From: Spirosoma fluviale
Lineage (GTDB): Bacteria > Bacteroidota > Bacteroidia > Cytophagales > Spirosomataceae
Length of the DNA: 64,000 bases
Assembly: GCA_945906795.1 (NCBI GenBank)
Contig: CAMDRO010000003.1
Coordinates: 1 to 64,000 of the forward strand
Reading direction: 5' to 3'
The notes beneath the pieces are model-generated. The model was not told the DNA's origin. It did no database searches and saw only the letters and a list, made by a program, of their open reading frames with translations. The translations under genes were made by a program, and so were the position numbers. Every line of letters begins with the position of its first letter. Position 1 is the first letter of the stretch. Below are positions 32,459 to 48,346 of the stretch, piece by piece.

Positions 32459-32546
32459 GATAATTAACGAGCAACAAGGAAACATGGAACGCTTGGGGTG
32501 AAGGAAAATGATAAAAAACAGGATGAAATAAGCGATTGAATTGGCC

Positions 32547-33488
32547 ATGATTTTGATGTGTTGGAGTTGCCAGAAAACAGAAGTATCCACTACGACTTCG
32601 ACAGGTACCTCGGTCACCCCGACAAAAACCTATTCGGGTACAGGTTCGATTACGCAGGGTTTAGGTATGACAGTTGTCGGCAGTTTGTACACATGCTCAG
32701 GAGGAAGAGTCTCTGCTGTGGGAAATATACTATCATCAGATTCTAAATCATGGGTTTTGCCAGCTGAAAACAGTTTCAGTACGGCTAATAAACTTCCCGA
32801 TTTATTCAATGAGTGTAATGCTAAATCTCCTACATCAATTGCCCAGGTGGATACCGCTAAAATTCCAACCACCATTATAGACTCAGATGGGGAGACTATT
32901 ACTGGGTTTATTTATGGAGATAATTATTTTGAACTTTATGTGAATGGGAAGTTGGTGGGTGTTGACGCAGTCCCTTTCACACCTTTCAACTCAGCCTTTA
33001 TAAAATTTAAAGCCAAACGTCCCATTAAATATGCCATCAAGCTAGTTGATTGGGAAGAAAATTTAGGCATAGGGACAGAGTTGAATGGGGGCGATACCAA
33101 TCACCCTGGCGATGGTGGGTTTATTGCAAAATTTAGTGACGGCACTGTGACTAATGCTAGCTGGAAAGCTCAAACCTTTTATATAGCTCCTTTAGCCTCG
33201 GTCGATTGTGTTACTGAAACAGGAACTTCCCGAAATTCCTCGGGTTGCCCAACGACCTCTTCCGCAGGGTTAAAATCTTATGCTTTGCATTGGAGCTTTC
33301 CATCGAATTGGTACGCTACTGATTTTGATTTTGCTACTTGGCCTTCCGCTAGTTTATTTACAGAAAGTGCGGTAGGTCCTAAAAATGCATATACAAATTT
33401 TAGCCCTCAGTTTTCGGGAGCTTTCTTTATTTGGTCCAGTAATTTGATTTTAGATAATTTGGTTTTACTTCGATTTACTGGAAAATGA
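32547..33488 (+). CDS. Secreted lipoprotein-like protein of unknown function, start region damaged
   Basis: 313 aa from the ATG at 32547 (a TTG lies two codons upstream). The N-terminus MILMCWSCQK is too short for a normal lipoprotein signal. Reading further back in frame from ATG 32508 gives MIKNRMK, a TAA at 32529-32531, then AIELAMILMCWSC, so a complete lipoprotein signal seems interrupted by one stop codon. The mature protein has a T/S-rich linker, GDNYFELYVNGKLVGVD (a galactose-binding-like strand pattern) and two Cys pairs. No family was recognised; its style resembles the YHYH lipoprotein half at 12734. Possibly a pseudogene, or still translated from the internal start without export. 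Confidence 0.6.
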   Translation: MILMCWSCQKTEVSTTTSTGTSVTPTKTYSGTGSITQGLGMTVVGSLYTCSGGRVSAVGNILSSDSKSWVLPAENSFSTANKLPDLFNECNAKSPTSIAQVDTAKIPTTIIDSDGETITGFIYGDNYFELYVNGKLVGVDAVPFTPFNSAFIKFKAKRPIKYAIKLVDWEENLGIGTELNGGDTNHPGDGGFIAKFSDGTVTNASWKAQTFYIAPLASVDCVTETGTSRNSSGCPTTSSAGLKSYALHWSFPSNWYATDFDFATWPSASLFTESAVGPKNAYTNFSPQFSGAFFIWSSNLILDNLVLLRFTGK

Positions 33489-33597: not shown

Positions 33598-36500
33598 ATG
33601 CTCTTAAAGAGTATAAGCTTTCCTAATCAAGAGTCTTCTTTGTTTGCGAATGAATCTCTCATTGATATTTTCTTAAAAACGGTTCAAAATTATCCGCAAA
33701 AAACAGCGCTTGTTTTTGGAGATCGTATCTGTACCTACCAAGAATTGGATTCAAAAAGCAATGGGTTAGCTCAAAGTTTATTGGCATTAAATATAGGTAA
33801 GGGGGATATTTTAGGTGTTTATCTGCCTAGGGGGATTGAATTACATGTGGTCATTTTAGGCATATTAAAAGCGGGTGCGGCTTACATTCCTTTTGATATA
33901 GATACTCCCAAAGAGCGAATAGAATCAGTGCTCTTAGATTTTCATTTAAGTTATTGTGTTACTCATGAGATTTTGAATGAAAAGCTGCAGACTATTTCAG
34001 TAACTGAGACCGATCTAAGTCCAAAATCTGCCATTAATCATGCTCAAGCTGATTCATTAGCCTATATTATTTTCACTTCAGGAAGCACCGGTAAGCCTAA
34101 GGGAATTCCGATCAAACATCATCAAATTGCGCATTTACTCCAATCAGAAAATAGTCAAATTCAGGTAAAGCCCATTGACATTATTTACCAAGGTTTTTCT
34201 GTTTCATTCGACATGTGGTTTGAAGAAACTTGGATAGCTTATTTGGCAGGTGCAACGCTCATCATCGCAGATTCTAAAATTTCAAAATCGGTTGATGTTT
34301 TACATGAGTTTCTTAACAAACATCAAGTAACTATTTTACATGCAGTTCCTAGCTTGTTGGCCATGTTAGATGTTCATATTCCAAGCCTTCGATTGGTCAA
34401 CTCAGGTGGCGAAGCTTGTAATAAAAATATTTTGGACAAATGGGCCGCTAGAAATTTGATATTTTTAAACAGTTATGGGCCAACGGAGACTACGGTAACT
34501 TCTTCATTAATCCAATTAAAGATAGGGGATGAAATTTCCATCGGGAAGCCTTTGCCTAATTTTAGCCTGGCGATTGTCAACGAATCTCTGGAGTTAATGG
34601 ATGTTGGTGAGGAAGGAGAATTAGTGATTAGTGGTCCATGTGTCAGTGAGGGGTATTTTCAAAGGCCCGACTTAAGTGAAAAAGTATTTTTGAATAAGCC
34701 GGCTGGATTGTCTGAGATGTTTGGAGATCGAATCTATTTATCTGGAGATGTCGGAAGGATGAATTCGGAAGGCAATTTCTTTGTGACTGGTCGGAAAGAC
34801 GATCAGGTTAAATGGCGGGGCTATCGAATTGAATTAGGTGAAATTGAAGCTCATTTGAATGCGATCGAGGTAGTCCAACAAGCCGTTGTGGTATTAAAAA
34901 GGGTTCAATCGTTGGATCAATTGGTCGCCTATGTTATTTTAAAGAAGGAGTATGAATGCGATGAGAAAGTAATTAGAAACGAGTTGAATAAGGAATTGCC
35001 CAATTACATGATTCCTTCATTGTTCATTGAGATTAAAGAATTTCAGCACCTTGCCAGTGGGAAAGTGGACAAGAAAAAATTACCCGAACCTAGTATCATT
35101 CCTGCCATTTCTTCCGCCTCGGATTCCAGCAGGGATCAGTCCATTATTGGGATTTTGACCGAGCTTTTCCCTGGATCTACGGTCAATTTGAAAGATGATT
35201 TTTTCACCGATTTAGGAGGATATTCTATGTTGGCAGCCCAATTTGTATCCGAAGTTCGGAAGTTGGCAGGCTTGGAACAAATCTCCATCATGGATGTGTA
35301 TGAACATCGACCTTTAGAAAATTTAGTTTCACATTGGGAATCAAAAAAAGAATCTGTCCATCCATTTGAAGCTTTTCAAAAAACAAATTCGCTCACCTAT
35401 TTTGCTTGTTGGGCCGCACAAAGTATTTCCTTATTTTTTATTTTTGGGCTTGTGGCCGCTCAAATATTTTTACCATTTCTTGGTTACTATTTCGCTATTG
35501 AGCAAATGGAAAGTCATTGGATCCCACTTTTAATGGCTGTTTTTATTTATTGTACGGTCGTACCCATATCTAGTGGTATTATTTGGTTGATCAAAAAGCT
35601 TTTTATCGGAAAATTTGAAGCCGGGGATTATCCACTTTGGGGATTGGTATTTTTTAAATGGTGGCTTCAGAAAAGATTAGTTTCCTTATTGCCCAAAGAA
35701 CTATTTAGTAATACGCCATTTTATGCCCATTTTTTACGTTGGTTTGGGGTAAAGGTTTCAGGCGATACACAGCTAAGTAATTTTGACATTGGGATTGAAG
35801 ATTTAGTCAGTATTGGAAAAAATGTGACCATCAGTTCAAATGTTGTCCTGAATAATGCTTGGGTTGAGAATGGCCGATTGAAATTAAGAAATATTAGTAT
35901 TGCTGATCACGCATATATAGGAACTAGTTCGGTCATTTCGGGTGATTGCCAAATAGCGGAACGAGGTGAGATTAAGGATTTATCCCTTTTGCCTTTAGGC
36001 CAAAACATTGAGAAAAATGAAATTTGGGCTGGCAGTCCGGCACAAAATTTAGGTGTAAAGCCTCAAGAAGAAAACGTTCATTATGTCTCAAAAAAGAAAA
36101 AAATCGAGTATCAATTTATTTTCTTGGCCTTGATATTTGCTTTCCCAATTTTGGTTTTATTGCCCTTGGCACCCTCGATTATAAGCCTTTATTATTTGGA
36201 TAATGAGGCAGATTGGTATTCTTTTTATTATTTGTTTAAGACGCCTATTTTCTCCTTCATGTATATTCTGCTCTTTATTTTCGAGCTTGTTTGTTTGACG
36301 CGAATATTTAAAAAAAATATCCTTCCGGGTCGCTATTCTATTTATAGTAAAACCTATGTAATCAAGTGGTTTTTGGATGCCTTATTTAGTTTATCTTTAA
36401 ACGTGATTAAACCCATTTTTGCTACCGTATTTATTTCTTGGATTTACAAAGCTTTGGGCGCTAAGGTGGGGAAAAATACTGAAATATCTACGGCAACCAA

Positions 36501-37497
36501 CGTGTCGCATTCACTTTTTGAAATAGGGGATGAATGTTTTATTGCAGATGATGTGGTGATCGGCGAGTCCGAAGTTAGAAATCAAATGCTTTATTTAAAT
36601 AAAACAAGTATTGGAAATCGAAGTTTTGTAGGCAATAGTGCGCTCATTCCACAAGGATATTCCTTAGGGGATGGGATGTTGATTGGTGTGATTTCGGTAC
36701 CTCCGACGCTGGACCAACTGCAAGATGAACCTTACGTTGATTGGTTTGGAAGTCCGGCAAAAGGCTTGCCCAACAGAGAAAAAAGAGATATCTATCCTCC
36801 TGAATTGACTTATCGGCCGCACTGGACTCGAAAAATGAGCCGAGGTATTGTTGAATTTATTCGCCTATTAATTCCTCAATCAATCATTTTGAGTGTCAGT
36901 ATTCTATTCATTGCCTTAACAGATGACCTAATCAAATTGCAAAAGTGGCATGAAGTATTTTTATATTTTCCATTTTATTATTTGGGTTTGGTGGCATTAC
37001 CTGTTTTCTTATTCAATCTTTTGTTAAAATGGGTTTTTATTGGCCGCTATAAAAAGGCTGAATATCCGATGTGGACTTGGCAGGTTTGGCGAACTGAAGC
37101 TATAACATCCATGTATGAATCACTGACCGTTCCTTTTCTTTTTGAATACATCAAAGGCACACCTTTTTTACCTCTCTTTTTTAGGTTAATGGGTGTCAAA
37201 ATGGGTGAAAGGGTTTATATGGATTCGACCGATATCACCGAATTTGACTTGGTGTCAATTGGAGATTATTGCGCCATTAATTTGGATGGTGGGCCTCAGA
37301 CACATTTATTTGAAGATCGAGTGATGAAAATGGGAGCCGTTCGTATAGGAGCATATTCCAATATTGGAGCTCGGAGTGTTATTTTATATGATACAGAAAT
37401 TGAAGAAAATTGTCACATTAGTGCCTTATCTTTGGTGATGAAAGGTGAGAAATTACCTTCAAAAACTTTTTGGTCAGGCATTCCCATTAAAAATTAA
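33598..37497 (+). CDS. Pls/PosA-type single-module NRPS: adenylation, carrier, six-TM, three tandem C-terminal domains
   Basis: 1299 aa. The adenylation domain (1-~500) has core motifs IIFTSGSTGKPKG (about 156-168), NSYGPTETTV (~292), YLSGDVG (~381), GRKDDQVKWRGYRIELGE (~399) and the A10 lysine in SGKVDKKKL (~487). A carrier domain follows with its phosphopantetheine serine at 543 (LGGYSML). From ~600 there are three repeats of a TM pair plus a soluble left-handed-beta-helix-like domain (about 725-810, 980-1050, 1210-1295). This A-T-TM2-C1-TM2-C2-TM2-C3 plan is that of epsilon-poly-lysine synthetase and its relatives. Inferred role: amide-bond formation with one amino acid, perhaps a homo-oligomer. 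The product is unknown. An outer-membrane barrel follows at 3 bp. Confidence 0.85.
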   Translation: MLLKSISFPNQESSLFANESLIDIFLKTVQNYPQKTALVFGDRICTYQELDSKSNGLAQSLLALNIGKGDILGVYLPRGIELHVVILGILKAGAAYIPFDIDTPKERIESVLLDFHLSYCVTHEILNEKLQTISVTETDLSPKSAINHAQADSLAYIIFTSGSTGKPKGIPIKHHQIAHLLQSENSQIQVKPIDIIYQGFSVSFDMWFEETWIAYLAGATLIIADSKISKSVDVLHEFLNKHQVTILHAVPSLLAMLDVHIPSLRLVNSGGEACNKNILDKWAARNLIFLNSYGPTETTVTSSLIQLKIGDEISIGKPLPNFSLAIVNESLELMDVGEEGELVISGPCVSEGYFQRPDLSEKVFLNKPAGLSEMFGDRIYLSGDVGRMNSEGNFFVTGRKDDQVKWRGYRIELGEIEAHLNAIEVVQQAVVVLKRVQSLDQLVAYVILKKEYECDEKVIRNELNKELPNYMIPSLFIEIKEFQHLASGKVDKKKLPEPSIIPAISSASDSSRDQSIIGILTELFPGSTVNLKDDFFTDLGGYSMLAAQFVSEVRKLAGLEQISIMDVYEHRPLENLVSHWESKKESVHPFEAFQKTNSLTYFACWAAQSISLFFIFGLVAAQIFLPFLGYYFAIEQMESHWIPLLMAVFIYCTVVPISSGIIWLIKKLFIGKFEAGDYPLWGLVFFKWWLQKRLVSLLPKELFSNTPFYAHFLRWFGVKVSGDTQLSNFDIGIEDLVSIGKNVTISSNVVLNNAWVENGRLKLRNISIADHAYIGTSSVISGDCQIAERGEIKDLSLLPLGQNIEKNEIWAGSPAQNLGVKPQEENVHYVSKKKKIEYQFIFLALIFAFPILVLLPLAPSIISLYYLDNEADWYSFYYLFKTPIFSFMYILLFIFELVCLTRIFKKNILPGRYSIYSKTYVIKWFLDALFSLSLNVIKPIFATVFISWIYKALGAKVGKNTEISTATNVSHSLFEIGDECFIADDVVIGESEVRNQMLYLNKTSIGNRSFVGNSALIPQGYSLGDGMLIGVISVPPTLDQLQDEPYVDWFGSPAKGLPNREKRDIYPPELTYRPHWTRKMSRGIVEFIRLLIPQSIILSVSILFIALTDDLIKLQKWHEVFLYFPFYYLGLVALPVFLFNLLLKWVFIGRYKKAEYPMWTWQVWRTEAITSMYESLTVPFLFEYIKGTPFLPLFFRLMGVKMGERVYMDSTDITEFDLVSIGDYCAINLDGGPQTHLFEDRVMKMGAVRIGAYSNIGARSVILYDTEIEENCHISALSLVMKGEKLPSKTFWSGIPIKN

Positions 37498-37500
37498 TTG

Positions 37501-38433
37501 ATGATGAAACGATATGTTGTTCTTAGTATTTTTTTGTTCAGTAGTTTATTTAGTTTTTCGCAAATCTCTTTGCTTGATTCAACGGAAACCCGCCCTTATG
37601 CTTTTACGGCAGGAATGAACTATATAAGTAATTATGTCTACAATGGGCGATCGGATTCACTGAAAGCGCCCTATTTTATTCCCTCTTTGACCTTTCGGCA
37701 TGAAAATGGATTATCATTGAGCGCTGATTTATATATATTAAACAATGGAGTTTCCAATGGCTTTGATTTTTTGGAACTAAATGGATCCTATAATTTTAAT
37801 ATTTATAAAAACCTTTCCGGAGGTGTAAATGGAACTAAATATATCATTAATGAAAGCTCGGAGTCTTTTTTCGGAAGTTTAAGCTATATTTTAGGGGGAT
37901 TTTTAAATCAAGATTTTGGGTTTTGTGAACTAAATGTGGGGTTCGATGCATTGAATGGAACAGGAAATACGGACATACGATTAAGCCCTGGAATTGAGAG
38001 AACCTGGGAGTGGGGCAATGAGGATAAAAGATTTAAAATTAACCCAAGTTTATATGCGATTTATAGTACGTTAAATTATTTTGAAGGATTTACGGAAATA
38101 AAAAATACCAATGCAAGGGCGCGTCAAAAAGGGAGAGGTCCTTCCTCAGTAAACCAACCAGTCATTGTTAGCAACACCGTTGTTAGAAATCCAGGGCTCA
38201 CTTTTATGACCTACGAACTTTCACTTCCTTTTAGCTTTGAGACAAAAAAAATGGGAATAAGTTTTATTCCTACTTTTGCTATGCCTAAAAACCCCATATA
38301 TACCGACGAAACCACCACGGTAACCTTCCCTAATAAAGCGTCCAAAACGACTACCATTGACGATACGTATTATTCAGAATTACATTTGTCCAATGTTTTT
38401 TATGGTCAGCTAAACCTGTACTTTAAATTTTAA
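37501..38433 (+). CDS. Outer-membrane beta-barrel protein linked to the synthetase
   Basis: 310 aa from ATG 37501 (ATG 37504 is equally possible). Signal peptide ending near FSFSQ, then alternating aromatic/polar strands (FTAGMNYISNYVYNGRSDS, LSLSADLYILNNGVSNGF, INPSLYAIYSTLNYF) and a terminal FYGQLNLYFKF, where a final Phe is the standard barrel signal for BAM. It starts 3 bp after the NRPS stop, so the two are almost certainly cotranscribed and perhaps translationally coupled. Possible roles are export of the synthetase product or a passive porin. I do not recognise the family by name. Confidence 0.75.
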   Translation: MMKRYVVLSIFLFSSLFSFSQISLLDSTETRPYAFTAGMNYISNYVYNGRSDSLKAPYFIPSLTFRHENGLSLSADLYILNNGVSNGFDFLELNGSYNFNIYKNLSGGVNGTKYIINESSESFFGSLSYILGGFLNQDFGFCELNVGFDALNGTGNTDIRLSPGIERTWEWGNEDKRFKINPSLYAIYSTLNYFEGFTEIKNTNARARQKGRGPSSVNQPVIVSNTVVRNPGLTFMTYELSLPFSFETKKMGISFIPTFAMPKNPIYTDETTTVTFPNKASKTTTIDDTYYSELHLSNVFYGQLNLYFKF

Positions 38434-38435
38434 AA

Positions 38436-39350
38436 ATGAAAATACTAAGCCTATTCTGTTGCTTATTTTTCGTTGGGTTTGCTTTTACTAGTCCACTGGT
38501 TTTGGCCCAAAATGCTTTCCCTTCTGAATTAGTGAATTTTAAGGCCTATGCTGAAAACCCGATTTTTACAGGAACGAATATAGATACCTGGGATAAGCAA
38601 ATCAGGGAGCGTGGATTTATTTTAAAAGAAGGGCCAAATTACCATGTATGGTTTACGGGTTATTCGCCTGCTTCTCCCACCAAGTTTTTAGGCTATGCCA
38701 CGTCAAAAGATGGGATTCATTGGGAGCGTTTTTCGAAGGAAACGATTCACGCGAGCCAATGGGTAGAAGACATGTGTGTGGTCAAATCGGGTAAAACCTA
38801 TTACATGTTTGCTGAAGGGGAGGGCGATATTGCACATATGTTGGTTTCAAAAGACCGTGTTCATTGGCAAGAAAAAGGAAATTTAGACATTCGAAATGTG
38901 GATGGAAGTCCGATTCGAAAGGGAGCTTATGGTACGCCTACTGTAATTAAAGCAAATGGAGTGTGGAACTTGTTTTATGAACGAGATGATTTGGGAATTT
39001 GGTTAGCCACTTCGAAAGACCTAAAATCATGGACCAATGTTCAGGATGAGCCCGTGATTAAAATGGGTCCTGAAACCTATGACCTTTTTGCCGTGGCCAT
39101 GAACCAAGTGATTCGTTATAAGGGTCTTTATTATGGATATTACCATGCTTCTGCCTTTAAAGATTGGCATGAATGGTCAACTAATATTGCAGTTTCTCCC
39201 GATTTAATTCATTGGAAAAAATATGAAAAGAATCCGATCATGGGCAATAATCAATCCAGTGGCATTGTATTGAAAGATGGGAAAGGCTTCCGACTGTATA
39301 CCATGCACAGAAAGGTGAATTTGTATTTTTCAGAAGGCGCCTCAAAATAA
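38436..39350 (+). CDS. Secreted five-bladed beta-propeller glycoside hydrolase (GH43/GH117-like clan)
   Basis: 304 aa with a signal peptide (about 1-25). Repeated blade strings YHVWFTGYSP, LGYATSKDGIHWERFSK, YYMFAEGEGDIAHMLVSKD and WLATSKDLKSWTN are typical of five-bladed propeller hydrolases. Acidic candidates are the E in GRDxxFAE-like positions and the D of ENPIFTGTNIDTWD, but the catalytic trio cannot be fixed by eye. It is 2 bp after the barrel gene, so the same transcript covers synthetase, barrel and hydrolase. Candidate substrates are L-sugar or anhydro-sugar glycosides, in line with the dehydrogenases downstream. Family number is not certain. Confidence 0.72.
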   Translation: MKILSLFCCLFFVGFAFTSPLVLAQNAFPSELVNFKAYAENPIFTGTNIDTWDKQIRERGFILKEGPNYHVWFTGYSPASPTKFLGYATSKDGIHWERFSKETIHASQWVEDMCVVKSGKTYYMFAEGEGDIAHMLVSKDRVHWQEKGNLDIRNVDGSPIRKGAYGTPTVIKANGVWNLFYERDDLGIWLATSKDLKSWTNVQDEPVIKMGPETYDLFAVAMNQVIRYKGLYYGYYHASAFKDWHEWSTNIAVSPDLIHWKKYEKNPIMGNNQSSGIVLKDGKGFRLYTMHRKVNLYFSEGASK

Positions 39351-39359
39351 AAAAATCAA

Positions 39360-39367
39360 TATCTTTG
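39360..39367 (+). promoter_or_regulatory. Candidate TAnnTTTG promoter box for the L-sugar cluster
   Basis: TATCTTTG lies 32 bp before the aldo/keto reductase ATG, in the only sizeable gap (48 bp) between the hydrolase and the dehydrogenase cluster. It suggests a separate promoter there. Motif match only. Confidence 0.45.
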
Positions 39368-39398
39368 TTTAAAACCTATTTAATCTCTTTTTAAAAAC

Positions 39399-40340
39399 AT
39401 GGAATACCGCAAATTAGGTAAGACTAATGAGCTCATCTCCGTTTTAGGATATGGAGCATCCCCCCTTGGAAATGTGTTTGATGTTGTAGATGAGCAAGAA
39501 GGGAAGCATGCGGTTCACTTTGCCATCGATCATGGGGTTAATTTTTTTGATGTTTCTCCCTTTTATGGCATCACCCTAGCAGAAACTCGCTTAGGAAAAG
39601 CCTTGCAGGGGAAGCGAAAAGATGTTTTTTTAGCGACTAAATGTGGACGTTATGATTTACGCGAATTTGATTTTTCGGCCAAGCGAATCATGGCGAGTAT
39701 CGATGAATCACTCCAACGCTTGCAGACCGATTATGTGGATTTATTCCAATTGCATGACATTGAATTTGTGACTAAGGAGCAAATATTAAATGAGGCGATG
39801 CCGGCGATTGAAAAAATTAAAGCTTCTGGAAAGGCTAGATTTATTGGGATTACAGGTTTGCCTGTGCGTTATTTGGCAGAAATTGCACGCCAAGTGGAAC
39901 TAGATACCGTCCTTTCTTGGGCTCATTATAATTTGCTTCAAGATGAAATAAATGATGAATTAGTTCCTCTGTCCAAGGAAAAAGGCTTTGGTTTAATGAA
40001 TGCCGCTCCACTGATGCAAAGGATTTTATCGGATGCGGCTTTGCCTGAGTGGCATAATGCCCCAAAGGAGATGTTGGCGATCCAACCTGCCTTATTGGAA
40101 ATTTGTCAAAAATATGGGGTGCGTTTAAGTGATGTGGCGATGCGATACGCGATGGATCATCCCGATATTGCTACCACGATTGTGGGCATGTGCCGTTTGA
40201 CATCCATCCAACGAAATATAGCTTCTTTGGATTTTAAAATTCCTCATGGAATTTTAGATGAGTTGGCCTCAGTAATTGCCCCGGTTAAAAATGTCATGTG
40301 GTTCGAAGGTCGGCCAGAAAATAACATCCCTCGTCCATAA
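39399..40340 (+). CDS. Aldo/keto reductase, L-galactose/L-fucose 1-dehydrogenase type
   Basis: 313 aa, cytoplasmic. The AKR fold is shown by GASPLGNVFDV, NFFDVSPFYG (tetrad Asp and Tyr), ATKCGRYD (Lys) and DLFQLHDIEF (His), with the NAD(P) site in GITGLPVRYL and VGMCRLTSIQRN. The combination of ASPLG, ATKCGRY, HDIEF and FIGITGLP closely mirrors plant-type L-galactose dehydrogenase and bacterial L-fucose dehydrogenase rather than generic AKRs. Expected reaction: oxidation of L-galactose or L-fucose at C1 to the lactone with NAD(P)+. It opens a run of four cytoplasmic sugar genes. The two substrates are isosteric at C1-C5, so sequence alone does not separate them. Confidence 0.83.
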   Translation: MEYRKLGKTNELISVLGYGASPLGNVFDVVDEQEGKHAVHFAIDHGVNFFDVSPFYGITLAETRLGKALQGKRKDVFLATKCGRYDLREFDFSAKRIMASIDESLQRLQTDYVDLFQLHDIEFVTKEQILNEAMPAIEKIKASGKARFIGITGLPVRYLAEIARQVELDTVLSWAHYNLLQDEINDELVPLSKEKGFGLMNAAPLMQRILSDAALPEWHNAPKEMLAIQPALLEICQKYGVRLSDVAMRYAMDHPDIATTIVGMCRLTSIQRNIASLDFKIPHGILDELASVIAPVKNVMWFEGRPENNIPRP

Positions 40341-40345
40341 ATACT

Positions 40346-41362
40346 ATGAGAGCATTATTTCTAACGGCCATTGGCCAAACCGAGATTCGTGACATTGAGA
40401 AACCTAGCATAGGACCTGAAGAGGTTTTGTTGAAAATAGGTATGGTTGGTTTTTGTGGAGGGGATTTAAACGGGTTCAAAGGACTTTTTGAATTGCAAGA
40501 ATACCCAAATGTGTTGGGTCACGAAGTGGGTGGGACGATTGAGGAGCTTGGGAGCCAGGTGCCTGAATCCTTTAAATTGGGCAATAAGGTTACCGTGTAT
40601 CCATATTTGAATTGTGGAAAATGTATTTCGTGTCGCAAGGGTCGTAGGAATGCATGCCAAGATAATAAAACGATGGGTGTTCGTCGGCCTGGTGCGATGA
40701 CCCGATACATCGCGATTCATTGGCAAGATTTATTTACATCTGAGAAACTTAGCCTAAAAGAATTAGCCTTGGTAGAGCCATTGACCGTGGGCTTTCATGC
40801 CGCCGCTCGGGGCCGAGTGAGCAGTCAAGATCGGGTTGCGGTAATTGGTTGTGGCATAGTGGGAATGGGTGCAATCGCTTCTGCCGTAAATCGGGGGGCG
40901 GAGGTTATTGCCATCGATATCGATGATTCCAAAATGGACATTGCCAAAAAGATTGGCGTCGCACACACCATTAATACAAGTCGGGAAGATTTGCATGAGG
41001 CATTGATGCGGATCACGGATGGAGATGGGCCTGATGTGATTATTGAGGCGGTAGGAAATGCAATAACGTATCGGGCTGCGGTGGATGAAGTGGCGTATAC
41101 AGGCCGAGTAGTTTGCATTGGGTACGCCAAATCTGCGGTAGAATTTAATACCGGTATTTTTGTTCGTAAGGAAATAGAAATTTTAGGCTCGCGGAATTGC
41201 ACGGATGAATTTCCGGAGGTGATTGCCTATTTAGAGGCGGGTAAATTCCCTGTCGATGAGGTTATTTCAAAAGTAGTTTCATTGGATGATGCCGGTGCTG
41301 CCTTGGCGGATTGGGCTGCCAATGCGAAGGGCATTACGAAAATTATGGTTGATTTTGACTGA
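40346..41362 (+). CDS. Zinc-dependent medium-chain dehydrogenase, sugar-acid/alcohol type
   Basis: 338 aa. Catalytic zinc ligands are in GFCGGDLNG and GHEVGG; the structural zinc site has four Cys in CGKCISCRKGRRNAC. The Rossmann motif VIGCGIVGMGAIA and the acidic AIDIDDSK point to NAD(H). It resembles L-galactonate/L-idonate/threonine dehydrogenases. Five bp after the aldo/keto reductase, it could oxidise the sugar acid produced there (for example L-galactonate to a keto acid) or a ketose/polyol. The missing lactonase and dehydratase are not in this window. Family is secure; substrate is inferred. Confidence 0.85.
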   Translation: MRALFLTAIGQTEIRDIEKPSIGPEEVLLKIGMVGFCGGDLNGFKGLFELQEYPNVLGHEVGGTIEELGSQVPESFKLGNKVTVYPYLNCGKCISCRKGRRNACQDNKTMGVRRPGAMTRYIAIHWQDLFTSEKLSLKELALVEPLTVGFHAAARGRVSSQDRVAVIGCGIVGMGAIASAVNRGAEVIAIDIDDSKMDIAKKIGVAHTINTSREDLHEALMRITDGDGPDVIIEAVGNAITYRAAVDEVAYTGRVVCIGYAKSAVEFNTGIFVRKEIEILGSRNCTDEFPEVIAYLEAGKFPVDEVISKVVSLDDAGAALADWAANAKGITKIMVDFD

Positions 41363-41369
41363 TAAAAAT

Positions 41370-42188
41370 ATGATAAAATCCTGTGCGACGATTGCCTTAG
41401 TTCCTGAAATTACTTCGGGCCCATGGATTTATTGGCATGATTTAGAGCGGAGTTTGGCGCATGCTTCTTCTTTGGGATTTGATGCGGTGGAATTATTTAC
41501 TGCTTCTGCTGAAGTTTTAGATGTGTCAGAGACCCAATTACTTTTAGAAAAATACAAATTGCAATTGGCTGCCGTAGGAACGGGAGCTGGCAAGGTGATT
41601 CATGGATTAACCCTAACGGATCCTGATCCAAACGTACGGAAAAAAGCCATTGAATTTATTGAGTCGATGATCAAATTGGGAGCGGCTTTTGGGGCGCCAG
41701 CGATCATTGGGTCGATGCAAGGAAATGTGGTGACAGGGGTAGATCGGGAAGAGGCGTTAAATTGGTTGGCCGATGGATTAATTTATTTAGGTAAGCATGC
41801 CGCATCATTAGGGGTGAAATTAATTTATGAGCCTCTAAATAGGTATGAAACTAATTTAATCAATACGCTGGGTGATGGAGTTGAATTTTTGAAATCACGT
41901 CAAATTCAGCATGTGGGTTTATTGGCCGATTTGTTTCACATGAATATCGAGGAGGCGGATATGGCTGCGAGCATTAAGTCCTCGGGCGAATATGTCATTC
42001 ATGTACATTTTGCGGATAGCAATAGACGCCCGGCGGGAAATGGGCATTCAGATTTCAGTGAAGTGGCTAACGTTTTAAAAGAAATAAATTACAAGGGTTA
42101 TGTATCTGCGGAGGCCTTTGCTTGGCCTAATTCGCAGTCGGCAGCGACCCAAACCATAAAAACATTTAATCAGTATTTTAATCAATAA
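41370..42188 (+). CDS. TIM-barrel sugar isomerase, ketose 3-epimerase-like
   Basis: 272 aa from ATG 41370, 7 bp after the dehydrogenase; the in-frame upstream start would overlap that gene by 77 bp and has no family support. Metal ligands typical of D-tagatose/D-psicose 3-epimerases are present: Glu in IYEPLNRYETN, Asp in LLADLFHMNIEE, His in HVHFADSNRRPAGNGH and Glu in YVSAEAFAWP. Expected activity is epimerisation at C3 of a ketose, or isomerisation, with Mn or Co. No signal peptide, unlike the barrel at 10435. Part of the L-sugar cluster; exact substrate unknown. Confidence 0.82.
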   Translation: MIKSCATIALVPEITSGPWIYWHDLERSLAHASSLGFDAVELFTASAEVLDVSETQLLLEKYKLQLAAVGTGAGKVIHGLTLTDPDPNVRKKAIEFIESMIKLGAAFGAPAIIGSMQGNVVTGVDREEALNWLADGLIYLGKHAASLGVKLIYEPLNRYETNLINTLGDGVEFLKSRQIQHVGLLADLFHMNIEEADMAASIKSSGEYVIHVHFADSNRRPAGNGHSDFSEVANVLKEINYKGYVSAEAFAWPNSQSAATQTIKTFNQYFNQ

Positions 42189-42191
42189 TGT

Positions 42192-42527
42192 ATGCAGCGA
42201 TTTTGTTTGGCTTTAGATCTAGTCGATGATTCAGAATTAATTAAAGAATATGAGCATTATCATGCCAAGGGCAATGCTTGGCCCGAGGTAAGCCAACATG
42301 ATATCGATGCGGGGGTTTTAAATATAGAAATATTTAGAACGGGGAATCGCATGTTCATGATATTGGAAACAGTGGATGAGTTTACTTTTGAAAAGAAATC
42401 TGCTTTTGATGCGACAAATCCAAAGATTGCCGCATGGGAGGAATTAATGTGGAAATTTCAAAAACCATTGCCTTGGGCAAAAAATGGAGAAAAGTGGATT
42501 TTAATGGATCGTATTTTTAAATCATAA
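42192..42527 (+). CDS. L-rhamnose mutarotase family protein (RhaM-like)
   Basis: 111 aa, the usual size for the dimeric ferredoxin-like RhaM/COG3254 family. The conserved His and Trp-Pro-Glu lie in EHYHAKGNAWPEVSQ, and NIEIFRTGNRMFMI is the core beta hairpin. Members interconvert alpha and beta anomers of L-rhamnose; relatives in L-fucose clusters do the same for L-fucose. Placed 3 bp after the epimerase and in a cluster with an anomer-specific C1 dehydrogenase, it likely supplies the correct anomer to that enzyme. The name rhaM is not assigned because the substrate may be L-fucose or L-galactose. Confidence 0.86.
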   Translation: MQRFCLALDLVDDSELIKEYEHYHAKGNAWPEVSQHDIDAGVLNIEIFRTGNRMFMILETVDEFTFEKKSAFDATNPKIAAWEELMWKFQKPLPWAKNGEKWILMDRIFKS

Positions 42528-42543
42528 ATTAAAACAAGTTAAG

Positions 42544-43555
42544 ATGAAATTATTCTGCTTTTGGTTGTGTTTGATTGGTAGTTGGGGTGTTTGCGCTCAG
42601 AAATTGCCTTCCGAATTTATTTTCCAAAAAGCACCATTTGCATCCAGTCATGCGTCTACGATTGTAGAAACCCCCAAGGGATTAGTTTCTGCTTTTTTTT
42701 GCAGGCAGCGATGAAGGAAATAAAGATGTGGGTATTTGGTTGAGTCGAAATATTCAAGATCGTTGGTCTCCACCAGTCCAAGTGGCGGATGGGATTCAAA
42801 ATAAAAAAGTTCGGTATCCTTGTTGGAATCCTGTTCTATTCCAAATGCCACAAAGCGAATTGTTATTATTTTATAAAATGGGTCCAAAGCCATCTCAATG
42901 GTGGGGAATGCTGAAGCGTTCAAAAGACGCGGGGCTAACTTGGTCTGCCGCGGAGAAATTACCCAAAGGGATCTTGGGTCCGGTCAAAAACAAACCACTC
43001 TTATTAGCTGATGGTACCCTTTTATGCCCTAGTAGTTCGGAGGATTCTGGGGATAAATTGCATTTTGAAATGACAAAAGATGGTGGCAGGACTTGGAAAA
43101 AAACGAAAGCCTTAAATGATGGCAAAAGTTTCTCAGCGATTCAGCCTAGCGTAATTTTTCTTAAAGATGGTCGCATGAAATTACTGTGCCGAAGCAATAC
43201 GGGATTTATCATGGAGGCCTATTCCCTAGACCAAGGAAATACGTGGACCTTCTTACAAAAAACGAATTTAAAAAATCCGAATTCTGGTAGTGATGCCATT
43301 ACCTTGAAAAATGGATTACATGTGTTGGTGCATAATCCACTAGGCAACAGGCCCAAAGAAACGGAAGGGGAGCGCGAAATATTAGCCGTTTCCACGTCAA
43401 AAGATGGAACACATTGGACTAAAGTGGGCGAATTAGAAAATACACCCTTGAAAGAATTCTCCAATCCAGCCATTATTCAAACGCGGGATGGCCACATTCA
43501 CATCACCTACACTTGGAAGCGTGAGAAAATCAAACATGCTGTTTTGAAATTTTAA
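42544..43555 (+). pseudogene. Sialidase-like BNR-repeat hydrolase with a frameshift in a T8 run
   Basis: Translation from ATG 42544 gives a signal peptide and a good start (SHASTIVETPKGLVSAFF). It then hits eight T at 42693-42700, after which the frame closes at TGA 42712. One base fewer would read on as AGSDEGNKDVGIWLSRNIQD into the long frame to TAA 43555, restoring a ~336-residue protein. Asp boxes SKDAGLTWS, MTKDGGRTW and SKDGTHWTK mark a six-bladed sialidase/BNR propeller. It is 16 bp after the mutarotase. Explanations are a real inactivating mutation, phase-variable slippage, transcriptional slippage that rescues the frame, or an assembly error. Confidence 0.8.
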
Positions 43556-43653: not shown

Positions 43654-43661
43654 TATTTTTG
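43654..43661 (+). promoter_or_regulatory. Candidate TAnnTTTG promoter box for the SusCD operon
   Basis: TATTTTTG fits TAnnTTTG and sits 39 bp before the ATG at 43701. A TTTG at 43617-43620 is too far upstream to be the -33 box, so the palindrome between them may substitute for an activator site. Confidence 0.5.
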
Positions 43662-43700
43662 TTTTTTTACAATTATTCATTAATAATTAAAATTCAATTT

Positions 43701-46700
43701 ATGAGGAAAACATTACTTTTATTGATGATTCTTTCGGTTGCTGCATTGAGTCCATTGTACGCCCAAGAAAGACAGGTTACTGGAAAAGTAACCAATGATG
43801 CGGGTGAGGCATTAGTTGGAGTAACTATCTCGGTCAAAGGAACGAACAGAGGCACCAATTCAGATGCGAATGGTTCGTTCAAAATTAATGCGGGACCTAC
43901 AAATTCTTTGATTGTGACCTATGTAGGGTATGTAAACCAAGAGATTTTGGTTGGTAGCAAGTCAGTGATTAATGTCCAATTAGTAGCGGCCAATGAAACT
44001 TTAGAAGAGGTGGTCGTGACTACATTTGGTACCGCCAAAAAGTCTTCTTTTACGGGTTCTTCTGCCAAGATTAGTGCGGAGAAATTAGCCGTTAGGCCTA
44101 TTACTAACATAGGCCAAGCCTTAGAAGGGATTGCTCCAGGGGTTACAACTACCTCGACATCGGGCCAACCAGGATCTTCTCCTGATGTTCGTATTCGTGG
44201 TTTTGGTTCTATTTCGTCATCCAATGCACCTTTGTATGTGGTGGATGGGGTACCTTTTTCTGCAAGTATTGCTAATTTAAATAATGACGATATTGAGACG
44301 ATCACAGTTTTAAAGGATGCGGCATCAACGGCTCTTTATGGAGCTCGAGCAGCGAATGGAGTGGTGATGGTGACGACCAAGAAAGGGACTAAAGGAAAGA
44401 ACTCGATCAATATTAAATACACCAAAGGATTTAATACCAGGGCGATGCCAGAGTATGATCGCGTAGGGCCTGCGGATTATTATCCTTTAATGTGGGAATC
44501 CAATCGAAACAATTTGGCTTATCGTGCTGCCAATCCGGTGGCCATCGCTACGGCCAATACCACAGCATCTGCTGGTTTAGGCGCCATTCTTGGTACAGGC
44601 TATAACGTATATGATGTACCGTTTGCTTCTTTAGTTGGAACCGATGGAAAATTAAATCCGGCGGCCAAATTAATCTACAATCCAGATGATTTAAATTGGG
44701 AGAAGGCCATTATGCGCCAAGGAGTTCGTGATGAGGTGAGTGCCAATTTCTCTGGATCCAATGGCAAGTCTGATTATTTCTTTTCTGTTTCTTATTTGAA
44801 CGATAAGGGATATCAGAACAAGTCGGACTATGATCGTTTTACGGCTCGTTTAAATGTTAATAACCAATTGAATGCTTGGTTAAAGGTAGGAACTAATATG
44901 ACTACCACGATGACTACTTCAAACCAGTCGACAGCTGATGGCGGAAATACTTTTGTCAATCCTTTCTTCTTCACTCGAGGGATGGCGCCAATTTATCCAG
45001 TGTATGCCTATAAGCCTGAATCACCAGGGACTTTTTTGAAGTTGGAAAATGGGAAAACTAGGTATGACTACGGAAACTTGAGTGCTTTGGGTTTGTCAAA
45101 TCGTCCTCAATATGGGGGTCGTCACGTGGTTGCGGAGACAGAATTGAATGAAAATTTCTTTAGAAGAAACCTTTTTGGGGGTCGTAGTTTTGCTGAAATC
45201 ACCTTTTTGAAAGATTTCAAATTCACGAATACGATTGGTTTGGATATTACCAATGCCAATACCGTTATTTTTGGAAATCCTGAAATTGGGGATGGTGCAC
45301 CCGCAGGCCGAGCACAAAATGAATTTGAGAATATAACCAATTATAATTTATCGCAATTGTTGAATTATAGCCATTCATTCGGCAAGCACAATGCGGATGC
45401 TTTAGTGGGTCATGAGAATTATAATTTAGTGAGTAATAATTTGGCCGGTTCTCGAAGCCAGCAAATTTTAGATGGTAATTATGAGTTGATCAATTTTACG
45501 ACGACTACTAATTTAACTTCTCAGTATGATTTGCGCCGAGTGGAAGGTTTTTTCTCCCGCGTGAATTATGATTATGATTCAAAATACTTTGTGTCGTTTT
45601 CAGCCCGTCGGGATGGATCCTCTAAATTCTATCAGGATAGGCGTTGGGGGACTTTTTATTCTATATCCGCTGCTTGGCGTTTAGACCAAGAAGATTTCAT
45701 GAAGGAGTTGACTTTCATCGATAACATGAAATTAAGAGGTTCTTATGGTCAAACAGGTAATGATGGTGGAATTAGTAATTATGCATGGCAACCACTTTAT
45801 GCTTTAGGTTGGAATAATGCGACTGAACCTGGTATCTTACAATCAAGTTTAGGTAGCAGAACTTTAGAATGGGAAACAAATACATCTTTTGATGTGGCCT
45901 TAGAATTTGGATTATTTAAAAACCGCATCAATGGAACTATCGAATATTTTGATCGTCAATCGACCAATTTGATTTTTGCGGTTCCTTTGCCATTATCGGT
46001 TGGTATTACTACTGAAACCAGAAACATTGGTTCCATGTTCAACAGAGGATTTGAGATTCAGTTAAGTGGTGATGTGGTAAAAACCAAAGACTTCGTTTGG
46101 AACATTGATGTAAATGCAACCAAATTGGAAAATAAAATCACCAAAATGCCGGCTCAAAGTAAGGAAATCATCGATGGAACTAAAAAGTTAAAAGAAGGTA
46201 GTTCTTTATATGATTATTGGTTACGTGAGTACAAAGGTGTGAACCCTGAAAATGGAGTGGCTGAGTATCGTGCCGTTTCGTATGTAGCTTCAAATTCAAG
46301 AATTACGGCTACTGGTGATACGTTAACCAACAACATTGCGAATGCAAGATTTTGGTATAATGGAACATCCATTCCTGATTTAACAGGTTCAGTAACTAAT
46401 TCAATCCGTTACAAAGGATTTACCTTGTCGGCTTTGTTGGTATACCAATTAGGCGGCAAAATTTATGATGCAGCCTATGCGGGCTTAATGGGTGCGGGAT
46501 ATCACAATGCAAAACATGTGGACATCTTGAATCGTTGGGTTAATCCGGGAGATAAAACCAATGTACCTAGAATGGACAATGGTCGAACGGCTGATTTTGA
46601 TGCCGCATCAGATCGTTGGTTGATTGATGGTAGTTACATGAATGTTCGTTCTGTGACCTTATCATACAATTTACCAAAAACCTTGGCTCGTAAATTAAAA

Positions 46701-46853
46701 ATGGATAATGCCCAAGTGTATTTAAGTGGTGAAAATTTCATTATGCTTTCAAAAAGAAGTGGAATGAATGTTCAACAAAATTTTGGAGGTACGACAAGTA
46801 ATGTCTATTCTCCAGCTAAATCTCTGGTTATTGGTCTTTCATTCTCTTTATAA
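43701..46853 (+). CDS. SusC/RagA-family TonB-linked outer-membrane transporter
   Basis: 1050 aa from ATG 43701 (MRKTLLLLMILSVAALSPLY is a clean signal; the frame extends 14 codons upstream from a TTG only). A CarboxypepD_reg domain (about 22-105; QVTGKVTNDAGEALVGVTIS) is followed by the plug (LYVVDGVPFSA, VLKDAASTALYGARAANGVV) and a 22-strand barrel. Length is normal for SusC. No N-terminal STN signalling domain, so no direct anti-sigma link. It imports glycan or peptide oligomers with the SusD lid protein encoded 11 bp later. The cargo is unknown. Confidence 0.93.
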   Translation: MRKTLLLLMILSVAALSPLYAQERQVTGKVTNDAGEALVGVTISVKGTNRGTNSDANGSFKINAGPTNSLIVTYVGYVNQEILVGSKSVINVQLVAANETLEEVVVTTFGTAKKSSFTGSSAKISAEKLAVRPITNIGQALEGIAPGVTTTSTSGQPGSSPDVRIRGFGSISSSNAPLYVVDGVPFSASIANLNNDDIETITVLKDAASTALYGARAANGVVMVTTKKGTKGKNSINIKYTKGFNTRAMPEYDRVGPADYYPLMWESNRNNLAYRAANPVAIATANTTASAGLGAILGTGYNVYDVPFASLVGTDGKLNPAAKLIYNPDDLNWEKAIMRQGVRDEVSANFSGSNGKSDYFFSVSYLNDKGYQNKSDYDRFTARLNVNNQLNAWLKVGTNMTTTMTTSNQSTADGGNTFVNPFFFTRGMAPIYPVYAYKPESPGTFLKLENGKTRYDYGNLSALGLSNRPQYGGRHVVAETELNENFFRRNLFGGRSFAEITFLKDFKFTNTIGLDITNANTVIFGNPEIGDGAPAGRAQNEFENITNYNLSQLLNYSHSFGKHNADALVGHENYNLVSNNLAGSRSQQILDGNYELINFTTTTNLTSQYDLRRVEGFFSRVNYDYDSKYFVSFSARRDGSSKFYQDRRWGTFYSISAAWRLDQEDFMKELTFIDNMKLRGSYGQTGNDGGISNYAWQPLYALGWNNATEPGILQSSLGSRTLEWETNTSFDVALEFGLFKNRINGTIEYFDRQSTNLIFAVPLPLSVGITTETRNIGSMFNRGFEIQLSGDVVKTKDFVWNIDVNATKLENKITKMPAQSKEIIDGTKKLKEGSSLYDYWLREYKGVNPENGVAEYRAVSYVASNSRITATGDTLTNNIANARFWYNGTSIPDLTGSVTNSIRYKGFTLSALLVYQLGGKIYDAAYAGLMGAGYHNAKHVDILNRWVNPGDKTNVPRMDNGRTADFDAASDRWLIDGSYMNVRSVTLSYNLPKTLARKLKMDNAQVYLSGENFIMLSKRSGMNVQQNFGGTTSNVYSPAKSLVIGLSFSL

Positions 46854-46864
46854 TTTTTAGAATC

Positions 46865-48346
46865 ATGAAAAATAAAATATTAATACTCTTAGCTTTTGTT
46901 TTCAGCATGATCTCTTTTTCATGCGAAACAGTTTATTTGGATGCTAGCCCGACGGCAAGTATCGATGCGGGCGCTGCGTATTCTACTACTAAGAATGCAG
47001 CTGCGGCGATTAATGGTATCTATCGCTCATTTGTTGTCCGTTACTTAGGTTCACAAGGTCATTCTGGACATCCTGCGATGATGATTATTTTGGACCATTT
47101 AGGGGATGACATGGTTCTTGGAACGACAGCCGCTTCTTGGCATGTGGGGGAAACTCGTTGGACCGCCCACCGTTCTGACGTCAATGTATTATCTCAATTT
47201 CCTTATGAGATGTATTATCGATTTATTGGTAATGCCAACATTGGAATTGCGAATATCGATAAGGCCGTGGGACCTCAATCAGATAAAAATACCTTGAAAG
47301 GAGAGGCCTTGGCATTGCGTGCTTTTAGTTATTTCAACTTAGTTCAGATATATGGCAAGCGTTATGATGCTGCTGCAAAGCCTAATGCACAATTAGGAAT
47401 TCCTTTAGTATTAGAGCCAACGACCGAAGGAAAAGCAAGAAATACGGTTGAGGAAGTTTATACGCAAATCAATAAGGATTTAGACGCTGCTGCGGCTTTA
47501 TTGACCTCTGCTCAGGCAAACAAATCACACATCAATCTTAATGTGGTGAAAGGTTTGCAAGCTAGAGTTGCTTTGGTTCAGCAAAACTGGGCTAATGCAG
47601 CCAAATATGCGGCTGAGGCGCGTGCGGGTTATATGCCTATGACAGCTGCTCAATATGCGGATGGCTTCCAAGACATTGCCAATTCAGAATGGATGTGGGG
47701 ATTTGATCACTTAGAAGATCAAACAGAATATTTTGGTGCATACCATTCATATATTTCTTGTAATTATAACTCTACGGTGATACGTACCTATCCTAAAGCT
47801 ATAAATAGCTTGTTGTACAATCAAATTTCGCCAAGTGATGTTCGTGCCAAAATGTGGGTAAGAACGCCGACGGCAGCGAATACAATTGTTCCTCCAGGTG
47901 GCGTGCGTGTGCCATTTTTAAATCAAAAGTTCCGTTTGCCAGGTGTTCCATCTACGTCTGCCATGGGTGATGTGCCCTACATGCGTGCCGCAGAAATGTA
48001 TTTGATAGAATCGGAAGCCAAAGTTCGTTTAGGAGATAATGCAGGTGCGGCTACTGTGTTAAGTTCACTTATTAAGATCAGGGACGCTAATTATGTAACT
48101 TCGACCAAAACGGGTACGGCCTTATTAGATGAAATTTTACTTCATCGTCGTATCGAATTATGGGGTGAGGGTCACCGTTTCTTAGATTTGAAGCGTATGA
48201 ATGCACCTTTGAATCGGAATGGAGCTAATCACATTGCTTCCGTGGTTTTATTGTATGACGTGGCGCCTGGTGATGTGCGCTGGGAATTCTTAATCCCTCG
48301 TCGTGAGATCAATGCTAATACAGCGATTGTTCAAAACCCGCTTTAA
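46865..48346 (+). CDS. SusD/RagB-family surface lipoprotein
   Basis: 493 aa. Lipoprotein signal with Cys20 (MISFSCETV). The TPR-rich alpha fold of SusD is recognisable in LKGEALALRAFSYFNLVQIY, NTVEEVYTQINKDLDAAAA and DEILLHRRIELWGEGHRFLD, the most conserved SusD signatures. It acts as the ligand-binding lid on the SusC barrel. It starts 11 bp after SusC and is followed by a strong terminator, so SusC-SusD is a two-gene operon. No surface glycosidase is directly attached to it, which makes the cargo hard to predict. Confidence 0.92.
   Translation: MKNKILILLAFVFSMISFSCETVYLDASPTASIDAGAAYSTTKNAAAAINGIYRSFVVRYLGSQGHSGHPAMMIILDHLGDDMVLGTTAASWHVGETRWTAHRSDVNVLSQFPYEMYYRFIGNANIGIANIDKAVGPQSDKNTLKGEALALRAFSYFNLVQIYGKRYDAAAKPNAQLGIPLVLEPTTEGKARNTVEEVYTQINKDLDAAAALLTSAQANKSHINLNVVKGLQARVALVQQNWANAAKYAAEARAGYMPMTAAQYADGFQDIANSEWMWGFDHLEDQTEYFGAYHSYISCNYNSTVIRTYPKAINSLLYNQISPSDVRAKMWVRTPTAANTIVPPGGVRVPFLNQKFRLPGVPSTSAMGDVPYMRAAEMYLIESEAKVRLGDNAGAATVLSSLIKIRDANYVTSTKTGTALLDEILLHRRIELWGEGHRFLDLKRMNAPLNRNGANHIASVVLLYDVAPGDVRWEFLIPRREINANTAIVQNPL

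Follow-up and report, generated by a model that had tools for sequence, protein, structure and literature searches.

How does a polymer of amino acids, assembled by a membrane-bound enzyme, leave a Gram-negative cell? The question is raised by two adjacent genes in a 64,000-nucleotide stretch of Spirosoma fluviale DNA (Bacteroidota; GenBank assembly GCA_945906795.1, contig CAMDRO010000003.1, positions 1 to 64,000 of the forward strand), hereafter the window. One encodes a nonribosomal peptide synthetase (NRPS) of the Pls/PosA family, the other, directly behind it, a predicted outer-membrane β-barrel. Gram-positive producers that rely on Pls, the ε-poly-L-lysine synthetase, have no outer membrane. 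We lean toward the reading that the window holds a PosA-type synthetase together with its own outer-membrane exit channel for a short cationic polymer, both genes being probably co-transcribed because of their spacing and shared strand. The cytosolic adenylation (A) domain would activate a diamino acid of basic character, L-ornithine being the likeliest, and load it onto the carrier serine. The membrane-embedded, three-fold condensation (C) region would then link the monomers by isopeptide bonds of their side chains, giving a short homopolymer of cationic character—by analogy with PosA—and this polymer might cross the outer membrane through the barrel, a step that we infer from linkage alone. 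No gene found here accounts for the crossing of the inner membrane.

The Pls/PosA synthetase family itself is known; new here is a PosA-type synthetase paired with its own barrel gene. We found no description of the outer-membrane exit of homo-polyamino acids in Gram-negatives, which is weak evidence of absence given the poor coverage of subscription papers. Within the literature on Pls/PosA and homo-polyamino acids, subject to the same coverage, only the PosA paper (PMC10522769) was judged pertinent, the others being judged from listings. In the searchable text of a paper that mines Bacteroidetes for natural products (PMC9248904) the relevant terms gave no match, and from that of a survey of coryneform Pls (PMC8117764) 'gram-negative', 'transporter', 'export' and 'bacteroid' are all absent. 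A co-conserved pore gene makes the exit question testable by a single-gene deletion.

Table 1. Features of the synthetase–barrel locus and of its surroundings, in window coordinates.
Feature	Coordinates	Strand	Basis or remark
Pls/PosA-type synthetase, A-T-(TM2-C)x3, 1299 residues	33598..37497	+	TIGR02353, Pfam, alignment with relatives
A domain, residues ~27-499	33676..35094	+	AMP-binding 27-354, AMP-binding_C 415-489; pocket via PosA alignment
Putative pocket residues D205 M206 E209 H248 N268 G270 S292 V300 T301 K489	within A domain, 33676..35094	+	alignment to PosA
Carrier (T) domain, residues 525-579	35170..35334	+	PP-binding 19.8 bits, slightly below the cut-off of 20.8
Phosphopantetheine serine S543	35224-35226	+	invariant in alignment
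Membrane-bound C region, residues 607-1297	35416..37488	+	TIGR02353, hydropathy, Hexapep match 1248-1278
Predicted outer-membrane β-barrel, 310 residues from the first ATG	37501..38433	+	models, fold matches, linkage; frame open from TTG 37498
Possible accessory gene, 315-residue lipoprotein-like protein	32541..33488	+	no Pfam match at 0.01; lipobox by eye
Run of GH43/GH130-like, aldo-keto reductase, IolM-like, IolO-like, L-rhamnose mutarotase-like and BNR genes	38436-43555		IolM-like and IolO-like both below NCBIfam cut-offs
TonB-receptor/SusD-like pair	43659-48346		follows the glycan-gene run
YHYH protein	12734-14161		

The synthetase and the barrel gene behind it

The synthetase is a single open reading frame with an A domain, a carrier (T) domain and three repeats of a membrane-helix pair (TM2) and a C domain. 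Residues 607-1297 match the NCBIfam model TIGR02353, 'Pls/PosA family non-ribosomal peptide synthetase', with 581.6 bits against a cut-off of 423.1. In Pfam, AMP-binding (239.4 bits), AMP-binding_C (28.9, cut-off 24.5) and Hexapep (40.6, cut-off 27) lie above their cut-offs, and PP-binding (Table 1) and LbH_EIF2B (44.4, cut-off 54) below. At the level of sequence, membership in the Pls/PosA family is well supported, and the full A-T-(TM2-C)x3 plan proposed in an initial annotation of this DNA is borne out. The single A-T module looks intact: the A3 motif TSGSTGKPKG, K489 and S543 are all present, the latter within a carrier motif DLGGYS and as the same serine in every row of a 10-row alignment. 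Neither the A-domain contacts nor the carrier serine appear inactive, in agreement with what had been annotated. Six membrane helices had also been counted; as judged by Kyte-Doolittle hydropathy only, the segments fall into three pairs (residues ~605-634/639-666, 835-867/879-905 and 1084-1114/1120-1150), which alternate with hexapeptide-repeat domains according to TIGR02353, hydropathy and the Hexapep match. An extra peak (928-947) stands beside the second pair, and one in the A domain (71-89) is barely above the threshold. The C region of PosA has been modelled as one domain of approximate three-fold symmetry (PMC10522769, available text). The window genome (2.63 Mb, 94.7% complete) matches the synthetase in two other places only, with 28% identity in the A-domain part, and holds the phosphopantetheinyl transferase (PPTase) family in one place, a 211-codon open frame on a different contig.

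The synthetase stop codon (37495-37497) is directly followed by an in-frame TTG ATG ATG. Counted from the end of this stop to the first ATG, at 37501, the distance of 3 bp given in the initial annotation is correct for an ATG start. The product has a signal-peptide-like start (judged by eye) and ends in ...LYFKF, that is, in the Phe already pointed out. AlphaFold2 reached a predicted local distance difference test score (pLDDT) of 62.1 and a predicted TM-score (pTM) of 0.55 with 6 alignment rows, and 73.6 and 0.65 with 11 rows; the latter model consists of a helix at 2-18 and strands from 33 to 309, roughly 12-16 by inspection. VIA-align, with rows within 1 Z counted as tied, gave barrel folds at Z 10.7-16.4 among the matches listed: KdgM (Z 16.4, 168 residues aligned, rmsd 2.7), FapF (15.9), NalP (15.9) and NanC (14.9); a family missing from these structural matches is not thereby excluded. 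The gene product is predicted by these models to be an outer-membrane β-barrel. Its family has no match above cut-off in Pfam (in which six barrels were scanned), NCBIfam or PHROGs. The nearest Pfam family, Gcw_chp (PF09694), gives the window barrel 15.3 bits (E 0.02) against a gathering score of 24, and only two of six barrel members match it at all (best E 0.0088).

The linkage of both genes was followed through 200 genomes of the window's family, searched with the synthetase at E 1e-30. Matches occur in 76 of them; among those listed, identities of at least 56% are found in seven genomes (G000, G177, G141, G132, G113 and, as fragments, G162 and G105), and the others, at 29-37%, are confined to the A and T part, in the manner of ordinary NRPSs. 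Within the window's genus, 5 of 38 genomes carry the synthetase. In all six family loci that can be read—the window and L042 to L046—the barrel gene lies directly behind the synthetase. The distance from stop to barrel ATG, on the same strand, is 3 bp in the window and L045, 4 in L042, 8 in L043 and 17 in L044, and barrel identity to the window descends from 90% (L046) and 85% (L045) to 54% (L042), 53% (L043) and 42% (L044). The outer flanks of the pair differ in L042, L043 and L044. A barrel profile matches 11/200 family genomes at E 0.001, seven of them strongly (E 1e-99 or better). Six of these seven are the synthetase-linked genomes, whose barrels are also part of the search profile; the seventh, G128, is absent from the profile and has no synthetase match among those listed. 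In L046 (G162:C311, 884-3472), the synthetase tail and the barrel share one 862-codon open frame without a stop, a natural fusion or an assembly error.

Outside the family, TIGR02353 is rare: 6/395 genomes of a phylum sample and 12/395 of a class sample (11 above cut-off) match it, the samples being overlapping and both containing the window genome. Five loci were read from the former, six from the latter and one more from the family of G1137. In this second family, the synthetase occurs in 2 of 87 genomes, both with a barrel behind it—4 bp away in G1137 (L121), and separated from it by an overlapping PPTase gene in G1216 (L129). The two synthetases are divergent, with 45.5% and 35.0% identity to the window's and with ornithine- and lysine-type pockets, and their barrels are only 19-20% identical to the window barrel. 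The relation between the barrels is seen by profile methods. A profile of the L121, L129 and L071 barrels matches the window barrel at 1.7e-11, hhalign aligns the L121 barrel with the family barrel profile over 118 columns (probability 88.7%, E 2.6e-6), and a profile limited to the seven family barrels picks up that of L121 at E 2e-7 and does not report that of L129 at E 1. A three-barrel profile matches 5/87 second-family genomes at 1e-10; G1137 and G1216 are the best, both being in the profile. As side observations on G1137, its synthetase (L121, 7824-11816) has an ornithine-type pocket and the carrier motif EIGGDS, as opposed to DLGG(H/Y)S in most others, and its barrel is followed by porZ and then, by eye, a recO-like gene.

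In total, 19 Bacteroidota synthetase loci were read, 17 of them with their downstream side, and the barrel adjoins or stands one gene away in 8 of the 17. This count includes L046, which as a fragment without an A domain was excluded from the pocket count and the synthetase tree. Not countable were G105 (L047, where the contig ends inside the synthetase) and G1080 (L122, where it begins at the synthetase end); G940 (TIGR02353 below cut-off) and G099 (L053, a stand-alone A domain only) were left out. Since the barrel adjoins or is one gene behind in these eight loci from two families, the pairing is, on sequence grounds, not chance; it is also not general in Bacteroidota. The initial annotation had treated a barrel unconserved beside the synthetase in relatives as the sign of a chance pairing. 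The barrel is conserved in 6/6 loci of the same family and 2/2 of the second, so that the linkage is constant in two families; in the other families sampled the barrel is missing, which makes up nine of the 17 readable loci.

Exit channel or another outer-membrane role

Several observations weigh against the barrel as the exit channel of the polymer. The nine readable loci without a barrel of this family nearby are L048-L052 and L117-L120, as checked in stop-to-stop frames of at least 100 codons (1219 frames from 43 sources; barrels of other families were not sought systematically). Together with posA of Acinetobacter baumannii, described as a single-gene operon in the available text (PMC10522769), these loci argue that a dedicated pore is not generally needed. 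Barrels of the same broad family also occur without a synthetase and with other neighbours: in the 87 second-family genomes, G1263 (E 1e-75), G1267 (5e-71) and G1207 (1e-12) carry one without a synthetase. In the 88% complete assembly of G105, whose synthetase is cut by the contig end, no barrel was found. On plasmids, 33 PLSDB records match Pls/PosA; the seven inspected (six from Proteobacteria, one from Streptomyces) have neither a member of the barrel family nor an annotated outer-membrane protein among their listed genes, PLSDB gene tables being incomplete. On the structural side, Foldseek E-values of ~1e-5 come with low TM-scores of 0.20-0.45, a fold match of this kind cannot separate import from export, and barrels with and without a linked synthetase cannot be told apart by their net charge. 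Hence, two candidate rules were given up: a barrel in every synthetase locus, and barrel charge as the mark of a cation-conducting pore.

The barrel might then be an outer-membrane protein with another polymer-tied task—protection of the producer, uptake of ornithine or breakdown products, or anchoring of the polymer. We regard this as possible, if rather unlikely. Linkage fits any joint function, nine readable loci manage without the barrel, and the top folds include both uptake porins and a secretion pore within ~1.5 Z. KdgM and NanC are uptake porins for acidic oligosaccharides, and the FapF pore is encoded together with its export cargo. The window barrel aligns with the 12-stranded KdgM/NanC type (4pr7, 2wjq) over 168 and 184 residues at Z 16.4 and 14.9, with 10-11% sequence identity, and with FapF (5o65-5o68), the outer-membrane secretion pore of functional amyloid, at Z 15.9 with ~9% identity; FapF differs in exporting polypeptides rather than a nonribosomal polymer. 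Against such other tasks stands the place of the barrel gene directly behind the synthetase in two families, as would be expected for a dedicated exit channel. The principle of a polymer machine with its own pore is common to PgaA-type barrels, which export partly de-acetylated polysaccharide and so differ in their product. A weak Foldseek match of the window barrel (E 4.3e-5, TM 0.30) is 4y25, 'Bacterial polysaccharide outer membrane secretin', which we take to be PgaA. The initial annotation had proposed a route for making and releasing an amino-acid homopolymer; its PosA-like synthetase and a conserved linkage stand, and release through the barrel is what we infer.

Several barrel-less loci have a PPTase gene nearby instead. 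By Pfam, similarity or annotation, a PPTase gene is close to the synthetase in L049, L050, L051, L117-L120 and L129, and on the plasmids of L088, L090, L091 and L093; it lies within two genes in 4/7 inspected plasmid loci. The A. baumannii plasmid synthetase has a hypothetical protein 460 bp downstream, and the synthetases of L091 and L093 (Shinella and Aureimonas plasmids) carry QAHSLEEG as the last C-region motif in place of QTHLFEDR in most others.

A wider reading would treat the barrel family as outer-membrane pores of Bacteroidota that various inner-membrane machines have recruited, on several occasions, for the exit of their positively charged products. These machines would be the poly-ornithine (PosA-type) and poly-lysine (Pls-type) synthetases, the ATP-grasp and permease operon of G128, and a protein of G005 that would make a de-acetylated glycan. 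We consider this doubtful. In G128 (L067, G128:C46, 1375-7738), the barrel heads a same-strand run of an amino-acid permease, a SET protein, two ATP-grasp ligases, of which one has a SET domain as well, and an ABC membrane protein; the nearest NCBIfam models of the permease are basic-amino-acid/polyamine antiporters, below cut-off. In G005 (L071, G005:C34, 4255-8534), a related barrel stands directly before a 1117-residue protein whose domains (GT2, polysaccharide deacetylase and GH18) make it look like a synthase of a de-acetylated glycan. Against this reading, the barrels of G1263 and G1267 lie between a small and a very large protein, with no polymer gene recognised by eye, and six more distant barrels of the order stand beside a DUF6799 protein in a case that was scanned and elsewhere mostly beside genes outside the scan. 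As a general marker of cationic-polymer operons, the barrel is thus weakened. A profile of 11 barrels, run on 14 whole genomes, finds distant members at other sites in G458, G949, G1100 and G1080; the genomes G353, G216, G294, G590, G1169, G876, G105 and G171 gave none.

Substrate pocket and predicted monomer

The pocket of the window synthetase was read by alignment with the PosA-type protein of the A. baumannii plasmid record CP040041, whose numbering equals that of the PosA paper at D217, M218, E221, H260, N280, T304, V312 and S313, the residues compared with its available text (PMC10522769). The window has D-M-E-H-N-G-S-V-T-K, PosA D-M-E-H-N-G-T-V-S-K; eight of ten positions are identical, which makes the pocket PosA-like, as the initial annotation's suggestion of such an alignment had left to be seen. 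Because the pocket matches that of PosA except for T304 to S and S313 to T, both at supporting residues, L-ornithine is predicted as the likeliest monomer. PosA, the δ-poly-L-ornithine synthetase of A. baumannii, has the A-T-(TM2-C)x3 plan in common with the window protein at ~37% overall identity, and differs by the two T/S swaps and, as a single-gene operon, by the barrel gene that follows in the window (PMC10522769, in part).

The weight of single positions can be appreciated from PosA mutants, as far as the available text describes them (PMC10522769): D217A and E221A left activity undetectable, T304A and S313A lowered efficiency 33-fold and 183-fold, and M218A led to greater lysine use. 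Pocket position 2 is presented there as the main length selector, with Met in PosA, Ala in Pls and Phe in PDAP/PDAB synthetases. The window synthetase has Met at this position, and hence differs from Pls, with which it belongs to the same NCBIfam family TIGR02353. In vitro, PosA yields a delta-isopeptide-linked product of 7-12 units, and a 12-mer of delta-poly-ornithine inhibited yeasts (PMC10522769, same sections).

The pocket type extends to relatives. Of 17 Bacteroidota A domains, 15 have D M E H N G S (V/I) (T/S) K, the ornithine type, and the remaining two (L052, L129) D A E S I G T V I K, whose Ala at the second position is the residue described for Pls; L046 and L047 (A domain unread) are outside this count. 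Ornithine-type synthetases can now be placed, by their sequences, in Bacteroidota. Among the homologues mentioned in the PosA paper are actinobacterial, proteobacterial, fungal, cyanobacterial and archaeal ones, besides others; 'Bacteroid-' is absent from its main text, the supplementary table aside (PMC10522769).

That the enzyme makes something different from poly-ornithine is unlikely in our judgement, whether it polymerises a diamino acid of another kind or a non-standard basic one, or transfers an amino acid to some other molecule. What speaks for it is that the pocket departs from that of PosA at two residues, each of which lowers the efficiency of PosA when replaced by Ala; moreover, one homologue among synthetases of cationic homo-polyamino acids (CHPA) is modestly active with arginine (both PMC10522769, available text). 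The case for such a product is reduced by the residues D, M, E, H, N, G and V, which are the same as in PosA and include the length selector at position 2, and by a TIGR02353 score well above the cut-off. To the amino-acid-decorated product that had been considered as an option, nothing points.

Surroundings and history of the pair

In the window, the GH43/GH130-like gene starts 2 bp behind the barrel, and the aldo-keto reductase, IolM-like, IolO-like and mutarotase genes follow on the same strand. The pair might therefore be part of a glycan-use operon, for example with the synthetase decorating or sensing a glycan product; we consider this very improbable. Among the nearest relatives, in both of which a contig end cuts the locus, L045 has the first two of these downstream genes in common with the window and L046 the first one; GH43 genes are also found on the flanks of the L048 synthetase, which lacks a barrel. 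The carriers L042, L043 and L044, however, lack all of these downstream genes around the pair, and a glycan link as a part of the system was rejected for this reason. The setting among glycan-degradation genes noted by the initial annotation is real in the window and partly so in L045 and L046, and is not conserved beyond them. That the synthetase and the barrel are neighbours by accident is largely refuted: nine of 17 loci do lack the barrel, but eight linked loci from two families combine barrel identities from 19-20% to 90% with outer flanks changed in several, and the barrel family is uncommon (11/200 family genomes at E 0.001, 5/87 in the second family at 1e-10).

In a tree of 21 barrels, from which L086 was excluded after inspection, the synthetase-linked barrels do not form one clade, and the starred branches force at least two label changes. 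The synthetase tree of 24 rows likewise needs at least two changes for the barrel-bearing loci. Hence, either the pair arose repeatedly or there were losses or exchanges of partners; the independent events are few.

Scans of the region for promoters, terminators and repeats gave nothing beyond chance or useful, and its base composition lies within the range of the window. The lipoprotein-like gene ends 109 bp before the synthetase in the window, and a homologue lies directly behind the barrel in L042 and L043. Its family occurs in 18/200 family genomes, 15 of which have no close synthetase match among those listed; G113 (L044) is not one of the genomes that carry it. These counts led to its rejection as an indispensable third gene, and it is kept as a possible accessory. 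In L123 (G171:C62), two upstream DUF7133/cytochrome c genes and the lipoprotein-like gene are 93-96% identical to those of the window, and the contig stops shortly behind, at the expected position of the synthetase. In three genomes of another genus, the lipoprotein-like gene stands in a run with sulfatase-like or YHYH-protein homologues; the window has a YHYH protein of its own (Table 1), and homologues of it are found near the lipoprotein-like gene in some of the 18 genomes.

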